Position numbers and translations under genes: made by a program. Below are positions 5,075-64,000 of a stretch of DNA of 64,000 nt, one piece after another (within the stretch, counting starts at the first letter, position 1; each line of letters begins with the position of its first letter). Source of the stretch: Isoetes taiwanensis (Eukaryota; Streptophyta; Lycopodiopsida; Isoetales; Isoetaceae); the NCBI GenBank assembly GCA_021234155.1, contig JAJEKV010000025.1, forward strand, positions 13,439,437-13,503,436. The letters are read 5' to 3'. Under the pieces are notes generated by a model. It was not told the origin of the DNA. It searched no databases and was given only the letters and a program-made list of their open reading frames with translations.

Positions 5075-8000
5075 CAAAGGTGGCTCCAAACATGCCCGTG
5101 GGTTCCACTTTATACTACCTAGGCTACTTGAGGCCAAGGTGGCTCCAAGCATACCATAGGCAGCAGCAGCCACTAGGCTCAAACATCCCAAGGTGAAACT
5201 CCAGAGCTTGTACCCTTGTGGCTCCTACATCCCACCTCTGAGGAGAAACCAACATGCCACATGGAAGCTCCAACATGTAACCTAGGCTCCAACATGCGAG
5301 CGTGCCTAAAAACATGCCACCTAAAACCAACATGACACCTAGGCTCAAACATGCCAAGGTGGCTCAAACATGCAGCGTGGGCTTCTTGAAGATAATTCTT
5401 CCCATACAAAAAAGAATAATAGTTTAATTCTGAGATTTATGGTTTTCCCATTAGCTATAACTATATATGATGCCACCTAGGCTCAACATGTCAAGGTGGC
5501 TCAAACATGCCCATATGGGCTCAAGCATGCCACTGGAAATCCCAGCACACTTAAAAGGTGAAATAAAGTATCTTCACTAGACAGCATGCGCAAGGCTCAA
5601 AACATGCCAAGGTGGCTCAAACATACTGCCAGCGGCCAGACATGCGACCTAGGCTCCAACATGCCAAGCGTGGCTCAAACATGCTGCAAGGTGTCTCAAA
5701 CATGCCCGCCTTGGGCTCCCTCACGTGCCACCTAGGCTCCAACATGCAGGTGGCTCCAAACATGCCGCGTGGGTTTCAACATGCCACCTAGGCTCCAACA
5801 TGCCTCAAACATGCCATGTGAGCTCCCAACATGCCACCTAGGCTCCACGGCATGCCAAGGTGAAGCCAAAACATGCCACCTTGAGGCTCAACATGCCACA
5901 CGGGCTCGGAGCATGCCAAGGTGTCTCAAACATGCGGTAGGCTCCAACATGCCACCTAGGATCCAACATGCCAAGTTGCTCAAACATGCCACGTGGACTA
6001 CAACATGCCACCTAGGCTCCAACATGCCAAGGTGGCTCCAAACATCTACCCTAGGCTCCAACATGTCACCTATGCTCCAAACATGCCAAGGTGGCTCCAA
6101 ACATTCCGCAGCAGCTCCAAAATGCCACCTAGGCTCCAACATGCCAAGGTGGCTCAAACATGTAGTGGGCTCAACATGACATCTAGGCTCAAACATGCCA
6201 AGGTGGCTCAAACATGATACCGCGTAGGCTCCCAGCCATACCCACCTAGGCTCCAACATGCCAGCGTGCCTCAAACATGCCATCACAGGCTCCAACATGC
6301 CGAGGGGTGGCTCAAACATGCCATGTGAGCCTCCAGCGTGCTGCCACCCAAGCTTCCAACTGTAGAATTGGCTCAAGCATGCCTAGGCACTAAATATGCA
6401 CCAAGGCTCAAACATGCCACGTGGGCTCCAACATGCCTGGCTCCAACATTCCTAGGTGGCTCAAACATACCACCCTAGGCTCCAAGAGCATGCCATCTTG
6501 CCCAGGGCTCACTTAGGCTCCAAGCATGCCAAGGTGGCTCCAAGCAGCCACCTAGGCTCAAACATGCCAAGGTGGCTCAAACATGCCACCCTAGGCTCCA
6601 ACATGCCACCTAGGCTCCAAGCATACCCGAGGTGGCTGAGACATCACCAAGGTGGCTCAAACATGCCACCTAGGCTCCAACATTTAAGGTGGCTCAAACA
6701 CAACTCTGCACGATGGGCTCCACCATGCCACTGGCTCCAACATGCCAGGTGGCTCACAACATACCACCTAGGCTTAAATATGCCAAGGATTGGCTCCAGA
6801 GCGTACCACCTAGGCTCAAGCAGCCCAGGTGAAACCAGGCATCTGCCAGTGGCCAACATGCCACTGACTCCAGAAACATGCCAAGTGGGTTCCACTTGTG
6901 CCACTGAACACAGCAGTGGTGAAGCTCAGCAATATTTCACCACCTAGGCAGCAACCGCATACACCTAGGCTCAAACATCCCAAAGGTGGCTCAAACATGC
7001 CACGCAGGCTCCACCATCCCACCTCCTGAGGCTCCAGCACCACATGAGCCAACTTGTAACCTAGGCTCAACATGCAGGCATTGCCTAAAACATGCCATGC
7101 AAGGCTCCAACATGACACCTGGCTCCAAACATACCCAGGTGGCTCAAACATACCCGTGGGCTTCTTCGCCCATCTGGCTCCAACATGTCAAGGTGGCTCC
7201 AAACATGCCCATGTGGGCTCCAACATGCCACCTAGGCTCAACACCGCCAAGGTGAAAAACCAAGCATCTTTGCCTAGGCACCAATATGCCACCAAGGCTC
7301 AAACATGCCAAGGTGGCTCAAACATGCCACCCAGCGGCAGACATACCCACCTAGGCTCCAACATGCCAGCGTGGCTCAAACGCCTTCACCACAGAACCGG
7401 ACATGCAAGGTGTCTCAAACATGCCCGCGGGCTCCTCACGTGCCACCTAAACCAGCATGCCAAGGTGGCTCAAACATGCCATGTGGGCTCCAACATGCCA
7501 CCTAGGCTCCAGCACGCCAAGGTGGCTCAAACATCTTTGTCTAGGCGCAACATGCCACCAAGGCTCAAACATGCCAAGGTGGCTCCAAACATGCCATGAC
7601 GAACATGCAACCTAGGCTCCAACATGCCAGCGTGGCTCAAACATGCCAAGGTGTCTCAAACATGCCCGCCTTGGGCTCCTCGTGCCACCTAGGCTCAACA
7701 TGCCAAGGTGGCTCAAACATCACTGCGATGTAGGTTTCAACATGCCACTGGGCTCCAACATGCCTCAAACATGCCATGTGAGGCTCCAACATGCCACCCT
7801 AGGCTCCGGCATGCCAAGGTGGCTCAAACATGCTACAGCGGGCTCCAACATGCCACACGGAGCAGAGCATGCCCAGTGTCTCAAACATGCCAGTGGGCTC
7901 CAACATGCCACCTAGGATCCAACATGCCAAAGTTGCTCAAACATACCACGTGGACTCCAACATGCCACCTAGGCTCCAACATGCCAAAGGTGGCTCAAAC

Positions 8001-10850
8001 ATCACCACCAAGGCTCCAACATGTCACCTATGCTCAAACATGCCAAAGGTGGCTCCAAGCATTCCACCCAGCTCAATATGCCTGGGGAAACCAGCATGCG
8101 GGTGAAACGAAACATCTTGAGTGGAAAAGCAACATGACATCTAGGCTCAAACATGCCAGGTGAAACAAACATGATGCCGCGTGGGCTCAATATGCCACCT
8201 GAAACTTCAACGTATAGCGTGCCTCAAACATGTGCCATCCTGAGGCTCCAGCATGTAGGGGTGGCTCCAGAAGCATGCCATGTGAGCTCCAGCGTGCCAC
8301 CCAAGCTTCAGCACAGCAAGGTGGCTCAAGCATGCCGCCTAGCCACCAAGGCTCAAACATGCCAGCACGCGTGGGCTCCAACATGCCACTAGGCTCCAAC
8401 ATTCCTAGGTGAAGCAAACATCACCACACACAGGCTCCAAACATGCCATCTTGAGCTCACTTGAAGCTCCAACATGCCAAGGTGGCTCCAAACATACCAC
8501 CTAGGCTCCAAACAAAACATGCCAAGGTAATCCAAACACTCACCACCTAGGCTCCAACATGCCACCTAGGCTCAAACATGCCGGTGAAGCAGGACATCTG
8601 AGGTGGGCTCAAACATGCCACCTAGGCTCCAACATGCCAAGGTGAAGGCTCAAACCCCATACCACGTGGGCTCCACCACATGCCACCTAGGCTCCAACAT
8701 GCCAAGGTGGCTCACAACTATACCACCTAGGCTTAAATATAGGATTGGCTCAAACATGCCACACAATGCTCAAACATGCCAAGGTAGAAACCAAGCATCA
8801 CTGCAAGTGGCTCCAACATGCCACCTAGGCTCCAAGCATGCCCGTGGGTTCCAACATGCCACCTAGGCTAGCGAGGCCAGGTGGCTCAAGCTTCCCGCTC
8901 TACCTAGGCAGCAACAGCCCACCCTAGGCTCAAACATCCCAAAGGTGGCTCAAACATGCCCTTGCTTGAGGCTCTACATCCCACCTCTGAGGGCTCCAAC
9001 ATGCCACATGGGCTCCAACATGTAACCTAGGCTCAACATGCTGGCATTGCTTCAAAACATGCCACCTAGGCTCCAACATGACACCTAGGCTCAAACATGC
9101 CAAGGTGGCTCCAAACATCTTGGCCGTAGGCTTCTTCATGCCATCCCAGGCTCCAACATGTCAGTGGCTCAAATGCCATGTGGGCTCCAACATGCCACAT
9201 AGGCTCCAGCTTGCCAAGGTGGCTCCAACATCTTGCCTAGGCACCAATATGCCACCAAGGCTCAAACATGCCAAGGTGAAAAAACAAACATAGGCTCCAA
9301 CATGCCAGCGTGGCTCAAACGCTTGCCACCTAGGCTCCCGGACATGCAAGGTGTCTCAAACATGCCACTTGCTTGAGCTCCTCACGTGCCACCTGGAAAC
9401 CAACATGCCAGGTGGCTCAGAGCATACCCGTGGGTTTCAACATCACCACCTAGGCTCCAACATGCCTCCAAACATGCCATGTAGAAGCAACATACCACCT
9501 AGGCTCCGGCATGCCAAGGTGAAACCAAACTGAGGGCTCCAACATGCCACAGGCTCCAACATGCCAAGGTGTCTCAAACATGCGGCTAGGCTCCAACATA
9601 CCTAGGATCCAACATGCCAAAATTGCTCAAACATGCCGCGTGGACTCAGGCATGCCACCTGGCTCCAACATGCCAGGTGGCTCAAACATCACCACCTACG
9701 GCTCAACATGTCACCTAAAACAAACATGCCAAGGTGGCTCAAACATTCATAAAACCAGCATGCCACACAAACCAACATGCCAAGGTGAAGCCAAGCATCA
9801 CCGTGGGCTCAACATGACATCAGGCTCCAACATGCCACCTAGGCTCAACATGCCACCTAGGCTCCAACATGCCAACGTGCCTCAGAAGCATGCCATACAG
9901 GCTCAACATGCCAAGGTGGCTCAAAGCTGTATGACTCCAGCATTTCAAGCTTCAGCACGCCAAGGATTTGCTCAAAAACATCTTGCCTATATAACTGCCA
10001 AGGTAGGCTCAAACGCTCTACGTAGGCTCCAACATGCCACGTGGGCTCCAACTTTATGCCACCTGAAACCAGCATGCCGCGTGAAACCAACATGCCAAGG
10101 TGGCTCTAACATGTACCACCTAGGCTCCAGAAACATGCCAAAATTAGTTTCCAACATCTACACAGGCTCAACATGACAAAAATGGCTCAAACATGCCACC
10201 TAGGCTCCAACGTGCTCAAACATGCCACGCGGGCTCCAACATACCACCTATGCTCCAACTTGCGAGGTGGCTCAAGCCATCACCACATGGGCTCCAACAT
10301 GCCACCCTAGGCTCCAACATTCTAGGTGGCTCAAACTGTCTACCACCTAGGCTCAAACATGCCATACCCAGGCTCACTTAGGCTCCAACTTGCCAAGGTG
10401 GCTCCAACATGCCACCTAGGCTCAAACATGCCACCTAGGCTCCAACATGCCACCTAGGCTCCAAACATGCTGGGTAGCTCAGGACATCTCAAGGTGGGCT
10501 CAAACCATGCCACCCTAGGCTCCAACATGCCAAGGTGGCTCAATCATACCACGTGGGCTCCACCATGCCACCTAGGCTCAACATGCCAAGGTGGCTCACA
10601 ACTATGCCACCTAGGCTTAAATATGCCAGTTGGCTCAAACATGCCACCTAGGCTCCAAGCATGCCAAAAGATTGGCTCAAACCTTCTGCAAGTGGCTCCA
10701 ACATGCCACCTAGGCTCAAACATGCCAAGGTGGCTCCAACATGCCTTGAGGCTCCAACATGCCATCTAGGCTCCAGCATACCAAGGTGGCTCAGGATACA
10801 CACCTAGGCTCAAAGCATGCCACCTAGGCATACCAAGGTGGCTCAATTTT
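5075..10850. repeat. 19-bp minisatellite array, main block
   Basis: This is the main array of the 19-bp family: CTCCAACATGCCACCTAGG, CTCAAACATGCCAAGGTGG and CTCCAACATGCCACGTGGG monomers, mixed with divergent ones. Many junctions read CCTAGG or CACGTGG, both short palindromes. A 75-bp AT-rich non-satellite stretch at about 5397-5471 interrupts it. Because 19 is not a multiple of three, all three phases of the monomer are translated in succession over 57 bp. None holds a stop, which yields open frames of up to 210 codons with periodic NMPPRLQHAK-type translations. These are not evidence of protein. The array ends near 10840-10850. Confidence 0.95.
5397..5471. other. AT-rich interruption of the satellite
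   Basis: A short single-copy-looking segment (GAAGATAATTCTTCCC ... CTATAACTATATATGATG) lies inside the 19-bp array. It has no monomer similarity and no coding signal. It could be a small insertion or the remnant of a read-level error. Confidence 0.5.
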
Positions 10851-51239: not shown

Positions 51240-54200
51240 AAGTTATTGGCTAGACCTTGTACCGTCTTGACGAGGGGGTGCTTGACGCCGTGAGCACTCC
51301 GGACCCTAAAACTAATTCTAAGCAAATTTTGCCCCAAAAGTCCTCTCCAAGGTTCCCCGGGCGACTTTTACTCCGCAACTTCCTCCCGGAATCAGACCGC
51401 TCGCCAATGGACTCTAACGCCGACATTGCCCTAGGGACCAAGTTTTCAGGCTGCTCCACCCTTCTTGAAGAAGCGCCAAACTATCTCATGTGCAACACAC
51501 TGTGAGTCAATTGGCCTAGAGGTATTTGAATACCGCAATGTAGGGCGAAGTGTTTCTTCTTTGCAAAACCCACTGCAACTTGGTCCTGTGGGTAATTTTA
51601 GCATTCCGGTGACGATGTGGCGAAGTCGTGGATCTAAGATTTCGGAGCTTCCTCCGCGAATGTCCCAACGACAAAACACTTTGGTTTCTAAGCACCGCCG
51701 CCGCAGACGCTTCGCGGGCTTGATATGTTCTCCCTGGACGGATGTTGATTTTTTGACCTTCACTGTGTTCCTTTGAACAAAGGATTCAATGGTCGGATAC
51801 CGGAACCTAGATCGTGGAGGTGGTCTTTAGCGTGACGCATGAGCCGCCAGAAAGGTCGCCTTTGGGAAGCTTTTGGGGCTCTCCTCGGGTTCTACTCTCC
51901 TCTAATGAGGAGGTCTTGCAAGGTCCTCGCCTTGTTTGACTTGGGCAAGTGTGCTACTGGCTGCCCAACAACAGTCAGCCCAACCGCTCTAGTGCAACCA
52001 TTTTTGATCTAAACTTATCCAAAATTTTGAAAGTTGGCCTCACAGATACATGTATGACTTAGGAAGCAATGACAAAAAATCAATTTAAGTCCTGTACTAT
52101 GCATTAATTACTTAATTTACTTAATGTCTTGCTAATGCAAAAGCGCCCTTGACTTAACCGCCACAACGAGGAGCATGTGTCCAAACTCCATTCCACACTT
52201 TGCTTCGCTGCTTCAATCGGGTGATGGATCGGCCACGCCCTGCGCAAAAGACTAAAATCCCAAGACTCCAAAAATCTAAAACCCCAAGTAGAACCTCGCA
52301 ACTCATGTGGTTTACATTTCGAGGTGGCTCTATCCTTGTCGTGATTTTGAATATGACCTTGCGCCGGTCTTGACGAGGGGTGTTGACGCCGTGAGCACTT
52401 TAATCTCTAAAACCACCCTAAGCAAATTTTGCCCCAAAAGTCCTCTCCTCGATAGCTCCCCCGGGCTACTCTGACGGCAATCTCCTCTCCTCGAACCACC
52501 GGATCTCGCTTAATGGACTCGTGAATCGCCGACATTGCCCTGTGGGACTAAGTTTTGTCGCTGTAAGCCCAATTTCTTCTCAAGAAGCGCCCAAACTATC
52601 TCATGTGCAACACACGCTTTAATACCGCAATTTAGGGCGAAGTGTTTCTTTCTTTTGCAAACTCATCGTAACTTGTCCCTAAGGTAATTTTGGCATTCAC
52701 GGACGATGTATGGCTCTGGATCCCATTTCGAGTCTCCGCACGTCCTAACGAATAAAACACTTTGGTTTCTACATCACGCCTAGACGCTTTCATGGGTTTG
52801 ATATGTTCTCCCTGACGGATGTTGGATTTTTCTGGACTTCTAATTGTGTTCCCCGAACAAAGATTCAATCTGGCCGATACTGAACCAGATCCGAGTGTGG
52901 TCTTTAGCGACACGTACGGAAAGGCCGCCAGAAAGGTCAGCCTTCGAAGCTTTTGGGGCTCACTTCCTGGTTCTGGACTCTAATGAGGAGGCCTCGAAGG
53001 TCCTGGCCTTTGACTTGGGCAAGTAGCCGCATTGCCCAACAACAAAGCGTCTTTAACTGCTCTCTAGTGCAAACTATTTGATATATAAACTCCATCCAAA
53101 AATTTTGAAAGTTGGCCTGTGATAAGCTACGGCGACTTAAGAAGCTAGCCGACAAAATATCGTAATTTAAGTCCTGTGATTACGCATTAATTACTTAATT
53201 TACGGTCTTGCTAAAAAGCGCTTCTTGACTTCTAATCGCCATATAACGGAGGAGGCTGTGTCCAAACTCCATTCCGGCTGGCCTCCTTGCTTCGCTTCCT
53301 CAATCGCATGATCCGCCATGTCCCCAAGTGCAAAAGACTAAAATCTCAAGACTCCAAAAATGCAAACCCCGCTAGACCCCGCAACTCATAGGGTTTACAT
53401 TTCGAGGCTCTATCCTTGTCGATTTTGAATAGGACTCATGCCATGTCTTGGACATAGGGGGTGTTGACGCCAGAAAGCACTCCGAACCTTAAAACCACCC
53501 TAAGCAGCTTGCCCCAAAGTCCTTTCTCCCGGCGTCTCCCCGGCGACGACGGGCAACTTCCTCTCCGTAATCCATGATCTCTGCCTCTCGCCAATGGACT
53601 CGAACGCCGACATTGCCCTAGGGACCAAGTTTTGTAAGGGGCAGCTTCCACCCTTCAAGCAAAGCCAACCACTTGCGCAACACACTCGAGTCAATTGGCC
53701 TAGGAGGTGGCCAATACCTGAATGTAAAGTAAGTGTTTCTTTTTATTTTGCAAAAACCGGACCTGTAACTTGGTCCCTAGGGTAATTTTGGCATTCCTCG
53801 ACGATGGCGAAGTCTGGACGCATTTTGATCCTCCAAGAATGTCCTAACGACAAACACTTTTGGTTTCTAATCGCTTTCCAGACGCTTCACCGCTTTGATA
53901 TGTTCTCCCTACCTGATGTTGGATTTTTGACCTTCGCACCAGTTCCTTGAACAAAGGATCACGGTCTATAATGGAACCGAGATCCGAGGTGGTCTTTAGC
54001 GCATTTCTGGCCGAGCGCCGCAGCGGAAAGGCTACCGCCGAAGCTTTTGGGGCTCGGCCTCGGGTTTGGACCTCTAATGAGGAGGCCTTGCAAGGTCCTC
54101 GCCTTGTTTGACTTAAAGCAAGTGTGCTGTACTGCCCAACAACAGTCAGCCTTGACCGCTCTAGTGCAAACTATTTGATCTAAACCTTTATCCAAAATTT

Positions 54201-57200
54201 TGAAAGTTGGCCCAGATCTTGCTGTATGACTTGTGAAGCTAGTCGATAAAAAACTGTAATCGGTCCGCATTCATGCATTTCATACTTAATTTACTTAATG
54301 TCTTCAAGCACGCAGTTTTTTACTTTGACTTCTAATCGCTTTCGCCAAATCTGAAGTGAGCAAAGTCCAAACTTCCATTCCGGCCGGGCTTCCTTGCTTC
54401 GCTTCAACTGCAGACATGTGATCGGCCACGCCCCAAGTGCAAAAGACCAAAGCTTGGCACCCAAACGCAAACCCCTAGAACCTCGGCTAACCCATGGCTT
54501 TATGTTTCTGAGGCTCTATCCTTGTCGATTTGAATAGGACTCATACTGGTGTCTTGACATGGGGTTAATTTCGAGCATCAACCCTAAACTAATCTGGGCA
54601 AATTTCGTCTCTAAAGTCCTCCTCGGTTACCGGCGACGGACGCAACTTCCTCTCCTGAATCAGACCGTCTCCTAAATGACCTTAACGCCGACATTGCCCT
54701 CAGGGACCAAGTTTTGTGGCCAGAAGCCCACCCCTTCTGAAGAAGCCAACCATCTCATGTGCAAATACACTCGTAGTCAATTGGCCTAGGAGGTGGGCCG
54801 AACACCGCAGAATGTAGGGCGTAGCGTTTCTTTCTTTGCAAAATGACCGTGTAACTTGGTCCCTAGGGTAATTTTGCATTCCGTGACGATGTGGCTTAAG
54901 TCGATCTGGGTGATTTCGGAGCTCCTCGCAATGTCCAACGACAAAACACTTTGGTTTCTACACTGGCTTCCGGCTTCGCAGACGCTTCAAGGCTGATATG
55001 TTCTCCTGACGGATCTTGGATTTTTTGACCTTCTGACTCAGGTTCCTTGAACAAAAGGATTCAACGGCTGGATACGGTCCCCAGATCCCGGAGGTGGTTT
55101 TAGCGCATCGGCCGTGAGCTGCCGCCAGAAAGGTCGGCCTTCGAAGCTTTTTGGGGCTCGGGCCTCGTGGGTTCTGGACTCTCTAATGAGGAGGCCTTGC
55201 AAGGTCCCGCCTGCTTGATTTCGGGCAAGGTGTCAAAATTTCTACGCTTCAACAACAGTCAGCCCGACCGCTCTAGTAAACCATTTGATCTAAACCTTAT
55301 CCAAAATTTGAAAGTTGGTCTGTGATAAGTTGCATGTAATTTTAGAAGCCAGTCGGGACAAAAATCGTAATCCTAAGTCCAGATTATGCATTAATTACGA
55401 ATTTACCAATGTCTTATACTCAAAAGGCTCTTGACTTCTAACTGCCACAACTGAGGAAAGTATTGTGTCCAAACTCCATTCCGCCTCTCAAGCTCAAGGT
55501 TTCTCAATCGCATGTGATCGGCCACGGCCCCAAGTGCAAAGACTCAAAACTCTAAGACTCCAAACGCAAACCCTCGCTAGAACCTCGCAACTCATAGGGT
55601 TTACGCTTCGGGAGGTGGCCTCATCCTGTCGTGATTTGGTCAGGACCTTTGCGCCTGTTCTGACGAGGGGGTGCTGACGAGCACTGACTCCTAAAACCAC
55701 TCCTGAAGCAGCCTTTGCCCTAAAAGTCCTTCCCCGGCTCCCGCCACTTTTACGGCAACTTCCCCTCTCCTAACCTGATCCGCTCGCCAATGGACTTAAC
55801 GCTGACATTGCCCTAGGGACCAAGTTTTGTGGCCGTAGCTTCCACCCTTCTAAGAAGCCAAATCCGTCTCATGTGCAACACAATTTAATCGTGAATGAGG
55901 GCGAAGTGTTTGTTTCTTTTGCAAACTCCATCGTAACTGGTCCCTAGTAATTTCGGCGATTCTGGACGATGTATGGGCCTGATCGGCATTTCTGAGCTCT
56001 CCGCAATGTCCTAACGACAAAACACTTTGGTTTCTATGACTGTCGCCAAGTAGGACGGCGGTTTGATATGTCTCTCCTGGACCTGATGTTGGATTTTTGG
56101 ACCTTCTTAATTCTGTGTTCCCCGTGGAAGCGGACTAACTGGCCGGACGGAACCGAGATCCTGAGTGTGGTCTTTAGCTGCATTTCTACGTAGTTTTCAC
56201 AGAAAGGTCAGCCTCTGAAGCTTTTGGGGCTCACCTGGCCTGGACCTCCCCTACAGGCCTTGCAAGGTTCTGGCCTTATTTTGACTTGGGCAAATGTGCT
56301 GCCGGGTCAGCCTAACAAATGTGTCAGCCCGGACCGTCGAAGGTAAAACTATTCGATCTTAAACCTATCCAAAATTTTGAAAGCAATTATGTTGGCGATG
56401 ATCAGAAACTAGTCGACAAAATATCGTAATTTAAGTCCTACTATGCATTAATTACTTAATTTACTTAATGTCTTGCTAATGCAAAGTTTACTTTGACTTC
56501 TAATCGCCAACGAGAGTGGCTGTGTCCAAACTCCATTCCGCCGGGCCTCGCTTCGCTGCTTCAACTCGCATGTGATCCGCTACCTCCTGCGTAAAGACCA
56601 AAATCCCCAAGACTCCAAATGCAAACCCGCTTAGAACCTCGCAACCCATAGGTTTACGCTTCGTGAGGCTCTATCCTTGTCGATTTGAATAGGAGTCATA
56701 CTGCAGGTCTTGGATACAAAGCGACGCCAGAGCATCTTTAATTCTAAAACCACCCTGGCAGCCTTTGCCCTAAGTAAAAGTCCTCTCCCGGCAAGGTCAA
56801 GCATCGACGCAACTTCCCTCTCCTGAACTCAGATCTGCCTCGCTTAAATGGACCTTAACGCCGACATTGCCCTAGGGGACCAAGTTTTAGGCCGTAAGCC
56901 CACCCCTTCGCTGGCGAAGCCAACTATCTTATGTGTGCAACACACTCTCAGAGTCAATTGGCCTAGGAGGTGGTCAGCCATCACCGCAATGTAGGGCGAA
57001 GTGTTTCTTTATTTGCAAAACCGACCGTAACTTGGTCCCTAGGGTAATTTTGGCACGGACGATGTGGCTTAAGCTCCGATCGGGTGACGGAGCCTCCTAA
57101 TGTCCGGAACGACAAAACACTTTGCCTTAATCGCTACCAAGTAGGATCTTCACCGGGTTTGATATATGTTCTCCTGACGATGCGATTTTTCGGACCTTCT

Positions 57201-60200
57201 CGAATTGCAGGTTCCTGGAACAAAGGATTCAACCTGGATACGGAACCAGATCCGGAGTGTGGTCTTTAGCGATTTCTGGCTGAGCTGCCGTGAAAGGTCG
57301 CTTCTGAAGCTTTTGGGTCAGCCTCCGGGTTTGGACTCTCCTAATGAGGAGGCCTGTCCCCGGCCTTGTTTGACTTAGCAAGTGTGCCAAATACCAACAA
57401 CAAAGCCACCGACCGCTCAGTGCAAACTATTTGATCTAAACCTTATCCAAAATTTTGAAATGGTCTGTGATGTTGGCTTGTATGACGAGGGAAGCTAGCC
57501 GACAAAAATCAATTTCAAGTCCATTTTATGGCATTAATTACGAATTTACGAATGTCTGCTAATGCGAAAGCTTTACTTCGGGATTTAATCGCCACAACGG
57601 AGGAGCCAGTCCAAACTCCATTTCGCCTTTGCTTCGCTCTCAATCGCATGTGATCGCCACGCCCTATGCAAGACTAAGATCTAAAACGCAAACCGCTAGA
57701 ACTCCGGGTAACCTATGGTGTTTGATGAGGCTTCTATCCTTGTCGATTTGATCGACCTTCCATACCGTGGTCTTGACGTGAGGGTGTTGACGAGCACTTA
57801 CCTTAAAACCACCCGGAAGTAGCTTTGTCCCAAAAGCCCCTTCCCGGCTGTCTCCGGGCGACGGACGCGCAACTCTCCCGAATCGGATTCGCCTCCCCAA
57901 TGGACTCTGCAATGCCTACATTGTCTCTGTGGACTAAGTTTGCGGCCGTAAGCCCACCCTTCGGTAGCCAGCTAAACTATCTCATGTGCAACACACCAGA
58001 AATAATCGGGTCAGGAGGTGGTCACATCACTACAATGTAGGGCTGAAGTGTTTCTTTCTTCTTTGCAAACTCACTGCGGTAACTTGGTCCCTAGTGGTAA
58101 TTTTCGGCATTCCAGACGATGTATGGCCTGACGCAAGATTTTCCGAGTCTCCGCGAATGTCCTAACGACAAAACACTTTGGTTTCAATCGCGCCTTCAGA
58201 TTTCTCAAGGGGTTTGATACAAATTTCTCCGACTCGGATGTTGATTTTTTGGACCTTCTGATCACTGTGGTTCCTTGAAACGATCTAACTACGATACCGG
58301 AACCGATCCTGAGTATGGTCTTTAGCTGCATTTTTCCCGGACGAAGCTTTTTGGGGCTCACCGCCCTGACTCTCCCCTCTAATAAGGAGGGGTCTTGCAA
58401 GGTCCTCGGGCTCCTTGTTTGACTTTAAGGGTGTGCCGCTTCTACGTGTCTAACAACAAAGTTGCCCTGACCGCTCTAGTGCAACCATTTGATCTGTAAA
58501 CCTTATCCAAAATTCTGAAAGTGGGCCAGATGTTGGCGATGACTTAGGAAGCTAGGCCGGACAAAAATCGTAATTTAAGTCCTGCATTTATGCATTAATT
58601 ATTAATTTATGTTCCTATACTGCAAAAGCGTCTCTTGACTTAAACGCCATAACGTGGGAGGAGTATTGTGTCCAACTCCCCATTCCGCCACTTCCTTGCT
58701 TCTCGCTCAACTGGTACGTGATCCACTAATGTCCTGGGCGTAAAGACTGTAACTTCTAAGACTCAAAACGCAAAACCCCTGAACTCCTGCAACTCATGTA
58801 TTTTACGCTTCTGAGGCTCTATCCTTGTCGATTTGAATAGGACCTTGCGCCGCGGTCTTGACATGTGCCACTTTGTTACCCGACTCAAAACCACCCTAAG
58901 TAAAATTTTGCCCCTAAAAGTCCTCTCCCTGCTGGCTCCGCTAATTTCCGATGGGCAACTTCCTCTCTCCTCCTGAATCGATCCGCCTCTCCATCGGACT
59001 CCGTAACGCCGACATTGCCCTTAGGGACTAAGTTTTAGGCCAGAAGCCCACCCCTTCAAGAAGCCAAATATCTTATGTGCGCAAATACACTCAGAGTCAA
59101 TTGGCCTAGGAGGTGGTCAATAATACCTAAATGTAGGCTTAGTGTTTCTTTATTTTGCAAACCCACCGTAACTTGATCCCTAGGGTAATTTTGGCATTCC
59201 TGACGATGTGGCTAAGTCGACGCAGATTTCGAGCCTCCGCGAATGTCCGAACGAATGTCACTTGGTTTCTAATCGGGTCGCCTGGTGATTGGCACGGCTT
59301 GATATGTTCTCCCTCGACGGATGTTGATTTTGACTTCTCGACCGTGTTCCTTGAACAAAGGATTCAACGGCCGATACTGAACCGATCCGGAGTGTGGTCT
59401 TTAGCTGCGACGTACGGGAGAGCGCCAGAAAGGCTCGAAGCTTTTTAGCTCACCTCCTCGGGTTTGACTCTCCTCTAATGAGGAGGCTCTTGCAAGGTCC
59501 TCGCCTGGTTTGACTTGGGCAAGTGTGCTGCATTTTTCCAAATAAATGTAGTCAGCCTGACCGTGCTCTAGTGCAACCATTCATCTTAAACCTTATCCAA
59601 AAATTTTTGAAAGTTGGCCTCAGATAAGTTACGATGACTTAGAAGTTAGCCGACAAAAAATCAGAACTTAAGTCCGTACTATGCATTAATTACTTAATTT
59701 ACTTAACGTCTTGCTACCGCGTGCTGCCCTTGACTCTTAACTCCGCCACAACGAGGAGGCTGTGTCCAACTCCATTCCGCCGGGCCTCTTGCTTCAAGGC
59801 TCTCAACTCCGCATGTGATCGCCACGCCCCAAGTGCGTGCAAAAGACCAAAAACTCTAAGACTCCAAACGCAAACCCCCAAGAACCCGCAACTCATGTGG
59901 TTTTACTGCCGGAGGCTCTCTATCCTTGTCGATTTGAATAGGACCTGGCGCCGGTCTGATCGCAGAGGGGGGCGTTTACTCTTCGTGAGCACCTGACCCT
60001 AAAAACCACCCTGCCCCTAAAAGCCCTCCGGCTGCCCCGGCGACGGACGCAACTTCCTCTCCCAACTTGATCCTGCTCGCCAATGGACTCAGAATCGCTA
60101 TACGCTCCTCAGTGGACTGCTTCAGGGCTTAAGCCCACCTCCCTTCTCAAGAAGCGCCAAATCATCTCATGTTGGTCATTAATAATCGCAATGTAAAGTA

Positions 60201-63200
60201 AGTGTTTTTTCTTTGCAAAACTCCATCGTAACTTGGTCCCTAGGTACTTTTGGCATTCGACGATGTATGGCCTGACGCAAGATTTCGAGTCCTCGCACGT
60301 CCCGCAACCACAAACACTTTTGGTTTAATCGCCGCCTCGCTAGACGCTGGCGTGTTTGATATGTTCTCCCGGACGGATGTTGGATTTGACCTTTCTGACT
60401 CAGGTTCCCCGAACAAAGGATCTAACTACGGATATCGGAACCGAGATCCGGAGTGTGGTCTTTAGCGACGTCAGCGGAGCGCCAGAGTTACCGCCTCGAA
60501 GCTTTTTGGGGCTCATTCCTGGTCTGACTCTCCTCTAATGAGGTGAGGTCTTTGCAAGGTTCTCGGCCCATTTGACTTAAATGTGTTAGCTCTACCAACA
60601 ACAGCGTCTTGACCGCTCTAGTGCAAACTATTTGATCTAAACTCTTATCCAAATTTTTGAAAGGTCTTATAAGTTGGATGTATTAATTTAGGAAACTAGT
60701 CAGACAAAACATTTCCGTAATCAAGTCCGTACTATGCATTAATTACTTAATTTACGTAATCGTCTTACACGCGAAAAGCGCCCTTGACTTCAACTCGCTT
60801 TATAACTCGTGAGTATGCGTCCAAACTCCATTCCGCTGGGCCTCCTTGCAGCCAAGGCTCTCAATCGCATGTGATCCGCTACCTCCTGCGTGAAAGACCA
60901 AAATCCCCGCGACCTAAATGCAAACCCTCGCTAGAACTCCGCAACTCATGTGGTTTACGCTTCGGTGGGCTCTATCCTTTGTCGATTTGAATAGAGCTAG
61001 TACGGTCTTGACATGGGTGTTGACGCCGTTAATTCCGGACCCTAAAACCACCTCGGCAGCCTTTGCCCCAAAAGTCCTTCTCCCCGGCCCCGGCGACGGA
61101 TTTCCGCAACTTCTCCCGAATCGCGGATCCGCTCAATGGACTGTACCGACATTGCCCTAGGGACCGCTTTGCGGGCCGTATTCCACCCTTCGGCTATTAG
61201 TTTAACCATTCATACACTCAGAGTCAATCGCTCTAGGAGGTGGGCCGAATAATGCGAAATGTAGGGCGTAGCGTTTCTTTATTTTGCAAACTCACCGTAA
61301 CTGGTCCCTAGGGTAATTTTGGTATTCCTGACGATGTATAAGCTCGGATTCATTTCTGGAGTCTGCGAACCGAACGACAAAACACTTTGGTTTCTATTAA
61401 TCGCCGCCTGTGACGCTTCATGCTGATGTTCCTCCCGGACGGATGTTGGATTTTTCCGACCTTCCTAATTGTGTTCCCCGAACAAAGATTCAACTACGAT
61501 ACGGAACCGGTGATCCCGAGTGTGGTCTTTAGCGACGGGCTGAAATGCTTCGCCGTGAAAGGTCAGCCTCGAAGCTTTTAAATTCGGGCCTCCCCGGGTT
61601 CTGACTTCTCCCTCTTAATGAGGGAAAATCTCGGTATGTCCCAGCCTTGTTTGACGGCAAGGTGCTGCCTGCTTGCCCAACAAATGTAGTCAGCCTGACC
61701 GCTCTAGTGCAAACTATTTGATCTAAACTCATCCAAAATTTTGGAAAGTTGGCCTCAGAGGTTGGCTTATGACGAGGGAAGCTAGCTGGACAAAAATCAG
61801 ACTTAAGTCCGCATCATGCATTAATTACTTAATTTACTTAATGTCTTGCTACCGCAGCCTTTGACTTCTAACCGCCACAACGGAGGAGTCAGTCCAAACC
61901 CATTTCAAGGCCTCTCGCTTCGCTTCAATCGCATGTGATCGCCACGCCCCAAGTGCGCAAAGCACGTTTACACCCAAAACGCGAAACCCCGCGAACCTCG
62001 CAACCATAGGGTTTACGCTTCGAGGCCTCTGTATCCTGTCGACGGATCAGGACCTTTGCGCCGTCTTGACGAGGGTGTTGACGCAGCACCTTTAATTTAA
62101 AAACCACCCTAAGTAGCTTGTCCCAAAAAGTCCTTTCCCCGGCTAAGCCCCGCTTACTCGACGCAACTTCCTCTCCTGAACTCTGATCCGCCTCTCTCGC
62201 CAATGGACTCGTAATGCTCCACATTGCCCTAGGGACCAAGTTTTGTGGCCGGTTTCCACTCTTCTTCAAGAAGGCCAACTATCTCATGTGCAAATACACT
62301 CAGAGTCAATTGGCCTAGAGGTGGCCGTATCACTTCAAGAATGTAGGGCGAAGTGTTTCTTTCTTCTTTTGCAAAACTGACCGTGTAACTTGGTCCCTAG
62401 GGTAATTTTGGCATTCCGCATTTATGTGGGCGAAGTCGATCTGCGATTGTGCCTCCGCAATGTCCGAACGACAAAACACTTTGGTTTCTACACCGTCGCC
62501 TCGCCAGACGCTTCGCTGATATGTTCCTCCTGGACGCGATGTTGATTTCTTTGGACCTTCTCGACTAAAGTTCCTTTGGAACAAAGGATTCAACTACGAT
62601 ACTCTGAACCGGATCCTGAGTATGGTTCTTAGCGACGCTCTCGACGAGCCGGAAGCTTTTGGGGCTCTCCCGGGGTCTCGACTCTCCCTCTAATAAGGAG
62701 GCCTTGCAAGGTCCCGCCTTGTTTTGATCGGCAAAAGGCCTGCTGCCCAACAACAGCTGCCCTAATCGCTCTAGTGCAAACTATTTGATCTAAACCTTAT
62801 CCAAAATTTTGAAAGTGGGCCTCAGATGTTGGCGATGACCTCTAGAAGCTAGCCGACAAAAATCGTAATTTAAGTCCGCATTCATGCATTAATTACTTAA
62901 TTTATGTCTTGCTACCGCAGCCGCCCTCAATTTAACCGCCACAACGGAGGAGTATTGTGTCCAAACTCCATTCGCCACTCTTTGCTTCGCCTTCAACTAC
63001 ATGTGATCCGACCACGCCCCAAGTGCAAAAGCATCAAAACTCTCTAAGACCCAAAACGCAAACCCCGCGAACCCGCAACTCATAGGGTTTTACGCTTCTG
63101 GTATTCTATCCTTGGTCGTGATTTGAATAGACTCATGCTCGTCTTGACATGAAGACTTGTTAATTCCGGGAATTTAAAACTTTCACCCTGGCCTTTTGCC

Positions 63201-63967
63201 CTAAAGTCCTCTCCTCCTCCCGCTATTCCTCTCGGGCGACGCGATGGGCAACTTCCCTCTCCCGAACTGATCCTGCCTCGGCCAATGGACTCAACGACAT
63301 TGCCCTAGGGACCAAGTTTTGTACGTAGTTTCCACCCCTTCAGCGTTTCCGCAACCATCTTATGCAACACACTCGAATAAATGGGCTCCAGGAGGTGGCT
63401 GCTTCATCACCTAAATGTGTATTTAAGTGTTTCTTTATTTGCAAACCTGACCGCGGTAACTTGATCCCTAGGGTAATTTTGGTATTCCTGACGATGTGGC
63501 GAAAGCTCTGACGGCAGATTTCTCGAGCTCCGCAATGTCCGAACGACAAAACACTTTGGTTTCTATTAATCGTCAGCTCGCAGGACGCCTTCACGGGTTT
63601 GATATGTTCTCCTGACGATGTTGATTTTTGACCTTCTCTAATTGTGTTCCTTGAACAAAGGATTCAACTACGGATACTGAACCGAGATCCCGGAGTGTGG
63701 TCTTTAGCGACACGGCTGAGCGCCGCCAGAAAGGTCACGAAGCTTTTGGGGCTCGGCCTCGGGTTTGACTCTCCTCTAATGAGGAGAGGCCTTGCAAGGT
63801 CCTCGCCTTTGTTTGATCGCAAGTGTGCTGGCCACGCCTGAATAACAAATCAGCCTGACCGCTCTAGTGCAAACTATTTGATCTAAACCTTATCCAAAAA
63901 ATTTTGGAAAGTTGGCCTGTAGTGTTGGCTTATGATTTAGGGAAGCTAGCCGACAAAAAAATCAACT
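51240..63967. repeat. 1.08-kb tandem satellite, about 12 copies
   Basis: The anchor GCATTAATTACTTAATTTA occurs near 52101, 53184, 54275 (variant), 55388, 56445, 57531, 58592, 59683, 60736, 61818 and 62886. Spacings are 1053-1113 bp. Each unit has a GC-richer part and a short AT-rich part with the anchor. The GC-richer part contains GTGTTGACGCC, GCCCCAAAAGTCCTCTCC, CGACATTGCCCTAGGGACC, TAACTTGGTCCCTAGGG, ACGACAAAACACTTTGG, GATATGTTCTCC and GAGTGTGGTCTTTAGCG. No long open frame is conserved across units. The copies differ mainly by short indels at C/G-rich places. The array starts at about 51240 and is cut off at the adapter. Confidence 0.95.
51423..51606. repeat. Inverted repeat inside each 1.08-kb unit (first copy)
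   Basis: In each unit ATTGCCCTAGGGACCAAGTT is followed about 130-150 bp later by AACTTGGTCCCTAGGGTAAT, its near-perfect reverse complement. The wider arms also match (CGACATTGCC...TTTTGGCATTCCG). Coordinates are for the first unit, where the right arm (51577-51600) is slightly altered. The same pair is seen, for example, at about 56862 and 57027. The structure could fold into a stem-loop or mark the ends of a short element captured in the unit. Confidence 0.75.
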
Positions 63968-63990
63968 AGCAATACGTAACTGAACGAAGT
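63968..63990. other. Nanopore ligation-adapter sequence (artefact)
   Basis: The bases from 63969 begin GCAATACGTAACTGAACGAA and continue GT, which is exactly the bottom strand of the Oxford Nanopore ligation Y-adapter known from adapter-trimming tools. It interrupts a 1.08-kb unit just after GACAAAAAAATCAAC, where other units continue ATCGTAATTTAAGTCC. It is not genomic. The final ten bases (63991-64000) come from whatever was joined to the adapter. Confidence 0.95.
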
Positions 63991-64000
63991 GGCATACCAA

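Follow-up and report, generated by a model that had tools for sequence, protein, structure and literature searches.

The 22 bases that follow the tandem array at the right end of the window (the whole 64,000-base stretch analysed here, C1029:13439437-13503436, from an Isoetes taiwanensis genome of 1.66 Gb in 1,110 contigs) very probably, at about 97%, represent an untrimmed nanopore adapter on a read end, located at the end of a contig in front of a scaffold gap, and are thus an ordinary artefact. The original prediction had offered two origins for them: a chimeric join, with two molecules sequenced as a single read, and a read end that kept its adapter and was built into the contig. The second is supported by a run of N beyond the window and by a stub of adapter, TCAGTTACGTATTGCT, on the far contig. 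The adapter, the A in front of it, the N run and the far-side stub all stand in the assembled sequence, and a like pattern is found at other contig ends.

The last 33 bases of the window consist of an A, the 22-base adapter and ten further bases (Table 1). As had been claimed from the sequence, the 22-mer is an exact match to the bottom strand of the nanopore ligation adapter. It is the sole match in the window with up to three mismatches, and none of 100 shuffles of the window contains one. With the A included, the match covers 23 bases and corresponds to the complemented 3' end of the top strand. The top strand of the ONT ligation-kit Y adapter ends in AATGTACTTCGTTCAGTTACGTATTGCT and its bottom strand is GCAATACGTAACTGAACGAAGT, both as printed in PMC9965538 and PMC7490894; a longer form of the bottom strand, ending in ACAGG, is printed in a passage of PMC12886913. 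All 22 bottom-strand bases are present at the window end with an A before them, and a truncated top strand is present across the gap. Where the Y adapter would continue past the 22 bases with a clean ACATT, the calls here are noisy.

Table 1. Features at the right end of the window (window positions).
Feature	Position	Strand	Basis
Tandem array, ~11.8 units of ~1.08 kb as called, cut by the contig end	51246..63967	+	Alignment of the consensus of other arrays; unit comparison
A between insert and adapter	63968..63968	+	A precedes 275/288 exact copies in the genome
Nanopore ligation (Y) adapter, bottom strand, equal to the complement of the top-strand 3' end	63969..63990	+	Exact match, 0 expected; published sequences
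Noisy adapter remainder (read-start tail), then N from 64001	63991..64000	+	Near two tails at other contig ends; N run

The adapter had been described as lying inside the assembled sequence. Instead, base 64001 onward, directly after the ten-base tail, is N, which puts the adapter at a contig end. All 18,000 bases read to the right of 64000 are N, as are 16/16 probes, each 100 bases long, as far as C1029:13701536, both probes at C1029 13704000 and 13706000, and the last 263 bases of the run (C1029:13706020-13706282). The run measures 202,846 bases if unbroken, its middle having been probed at points and not read throughout. The far contig opens with TCAGTTACGTATTGCT, which equals the final 16 top-strand bases; it runs opposite to the window adapter, oriented as at the start of a read, and ordinary sequence follows. 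With the adapter at the window end and this stub opposite, both contigs that flank the gap appear to be capped by untrimmed read ends. N alone could also mark masked sequence, and it is the adapters at both edges of the run that lead us to read it as a gap, the size of which would derive from a long-range map. A search of the opening 7.7 kb of the far contig for a continuation of the array found no match with the unit consensus (E up to 0.001), and none with the window sequence (E up to 1e-5). Farther along the scaffold, all 11 probes in C1029 13850000-14400039 are N, as are those at 14700000 and 15500000, while 7 of the 20 probes in that set are bases; the N probes at 13.85-14.4, 14.7 and 15.5 Mb mark further large gaps, or masked stretches, in the same scaffold.

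These elements suggest the following course of events. The last nanopore read to extend the contig into the array would have begun, seen in reverse, in the middle of a unit, and its ligation adapter would have been left untrimmed. The assembler would have kept this read end, giving a contig that ends in insert, A, adapter and a few noisy bases. The scaffolder would then have placed the next contig ~202,846 N away, and the first read of that contig would likewise have kept a truncated adapter. The contig end would accordingly be a read start seen in reverse, an orientation that we infer, and the terminal stretch of the contig is presumably supported by few reads.

The ten bases after the adapter, which do differ from the tandem unit as originally noted, look like noisy calls from the start of a nanopore read. 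The tails of 44 adapter copies at contig ends are A-rich (170/321 bases), and 41 of them begin with A, against G in the window tail, GGCATACCAA. Pooled, the 44 tails resemble ACATTAAA, which is complementary to the top-strand bases that come before the 22 and is the continuation that served for the comparison in place of the ACAGG form of PMC12886913: the mean normalised edit distance is 0.440, compared to 0.566 (sd 0.019) for shuffled tails, with 0/2,000 shuffles as low. For GGCATACCAA alone the distance to ACATTAAA is 0.50, no better than chance (380/2,000 shuffles as low). The window tail is, in turn, within two edits of GCTACCAA (L025) and GGCTACTAA (L041), two of the 43 other tails; in a control, 21 of 3,000 random 10-mers from the window came within two edits of any of these 43.

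A natural genomic 22-mer that equals the adapter by coincidence can be practically discounted. Nothing beyond the presence of the bases speaks for it, and the genome contains 288 exact copies (136 on one strand, 152 on the other), where ~0.0002 are expected by chance and the reversed-pattern control gives 0+0. An A precedes 275 of the 288, as dA-tailing would give; the A at 63968 is likewise such as dA-tailing before ligation leaves, though it could also be genomic. A 16-base stub consisting of this A and the first 15 adapter bases, AGCAATACGTAACTGA, occurs 556 times (279+277; reversed control 0+0; ~0.8 expected). These 556 sites include the 275, and the remaining 281 are truncated or altered copies. 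Surroundings were read for 51 copies. Ten of these head the list and all lie on C907, 40 come from taking alternate entries among the following 90 (the first 40 of the resulting 45), and one is the window's own. In 44 of the 51, a run of N begins 4-17 bases past the adapter (median 7), so that contig ends are the usual location of the adapter among the copies read, and internal copies are a minority. The genome counts of the 22-mer and the 16-base stub, set against their reversed controls, and this association with contig ends together rule out natural sequence. Residual adapter at assembly termini is on record for Escherichia phage YF01 (PMC9965538), in which, as here, adapter remained at the end of the assembled sequence. 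The YF01 authors trimmed theirs, as that paper describes, whereas in the present case the adapter survived into the assembly, beside scaffold gaps and in many places.

In chimeric nanopore reads, genomic sequence flanks the internal adapter to the left and to the right. If the window adapter stood between two molecules in this way, the sequence to its right would belong elsewhere. Such configurations do exist in this assembly: bases flank the adapter on both sides in 7 of the 51 copies read (L008, L009, L033, L035, L038, L044 and L049), and in L009 the last 12 top-strand bases come 10 bases after the adapter. These seven are the real candidates for mis-joins of the assembly. No duplicated flanks, as an overlap join would leave, were found at them in 1,500 bases per side for two and 200 per side for the other five. 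The window site carries the same adapter, but it has no genomic sequence on both sides: only ten bases stand between it and the N, and a second adapter stub opens the far side of the gap, where the next contig starts. A chimeric join at this site, as the original prediction proposed, is therefore very improbable; the N run and the second stub rule it out unless the N hide real sequence from 64001 onward. The untrimmed read end fits both observations.

The array in front of the adapter is known from other places. A consensus of 26 units, drawn from four arrays elsewhere (on C703, C1055, C1029 at 12.24 Mb and C321), aligns to the window from 51246 to 63960, and the array end at 63967 was set by the adapter. 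The earlier caution that the window does not give the true length of the array is right, as the contig end cuts it. The 1.08-kb unit length also described earlier holds for the array as printed (mean 1,079 over the 11 window units), but the units of the four other arrays, which are better called, average 1,112-1,123 (~1.115 kb). The unit is found in tandem at other places in the genome, with at least 80 matches, which come from the 16 of 2,605 candidates that were scored. Rfam returned no match on the window at gathering thresholds. Upstream sequence is alike in three of the four other arrays, at 84-93% over 1.2-1.8 kb. Of these three, one has ~1.5 kb more array in between, and the 3 kb upstream of the fourth are all array. 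Approximately 600 bases downstream are alike in all four (67-74%). With flanks alike between arrays, a dispersed element may carry the 1.1-kb array; in the 3 kb that precede the array of the window, nothing matches the flanks of the others.

The rest of the window contains several further features. The segment 10916-11277 is a 73% match to a portion of the tandem unit, inverted, and lies just past a 19-base satellite that ends at 10829. This satellite (consensus CCAACATGCCACCTAGGCT or a rotation of it) occupies 66-1219 and 5640-10829, where copies match each other at only 62% and 58%, and these stretches are possibly badly called as well. An open frame of 220 amino acids at 45404-46066 matches Lipase_3 (PF01764, E 1.5e-25). 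As this frame is kept open, base calling there appears to be good enough, unlike in the array.

Within the window array, the units are 71.1% identical to each other (55 pairs), and adjacent ones 70.5% (10 pairs), compared to 75.3-75.7% with the units of each of the four other arrays (286 pairs). Units within and between those four arrays are 85.8-90.5% identical. The G+C content is 48.4% in the window units and 52.0-52.6% in the other arrays, and indel bases per substitution amount to 1.53 and 1.28, respectively. The window units are thus closer to units of other arrays than to each other, shorter, and richer in indels, which suggests that most of the apparent divergence is probably sequencing noise, as expected of a stretch with poor base calls and weak polishing. 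A consensus built from the 11 window units shares 85.4% identity with that of the other arrays. Five simulations of independent noise at a matched level, with copies 75.6-76.5% identical to the consensus (76.8% observed), gave 86.8-87.8% for the same comparison; an earlier simulation, in which the noise was set too low, gave 89.6-91.6% and overstated the shared part. With the observed value below all five matched runs, random noise explains most of the divergence, and a small part common to the window units remains; purely random noise does not quite account for the whole. That the low identity between window units reflects real, old divergence, a reading that concerns the array only, is unlikely. 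This small common part favours it, as does the excess of indel bases over substitutions in the other arrays, but the low mutual identity of the window units, their shorter length and their own still larger excess of indels all argue against it.

In practical terms, the final 32-33 bases of the window do not belong to the genome, have no biological meaning and are to be trimmed, and the several hundred further sites with adapter in the assembly warrant the same screen. Near such contig ends, claims about the divergence of repeat units, the length of arrays or sequence variation are not to be trusted.

The differences of the window array from the unit consensus are biased towards the sequence contexts CpG and CHG. 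Per copy and site they amount to 0.353 at CpG and 0.429 at CHG, compared to 0.218 and 0.148 at the control contexts GpC and GHC. The other four arrays (L073-L076) show the same bias in a weaker form (CpG 0.163, CHG 0.207; GpC 0.055, GHC 0.052). Because they share it, base-calling error linked to methylation and real decay of methylated cytosines are indistinguishable here. Methyl groups are described in PMC7501810 as making base calling harder. As a tentative reading of these base differences, somewhat short of an even chance, the poor calls in the array may unintentionally record dense cytosine methylation of the plant type, which would have misled the base caller; such methylation may also contribute to the breaking of contigs in arrays of this kind.
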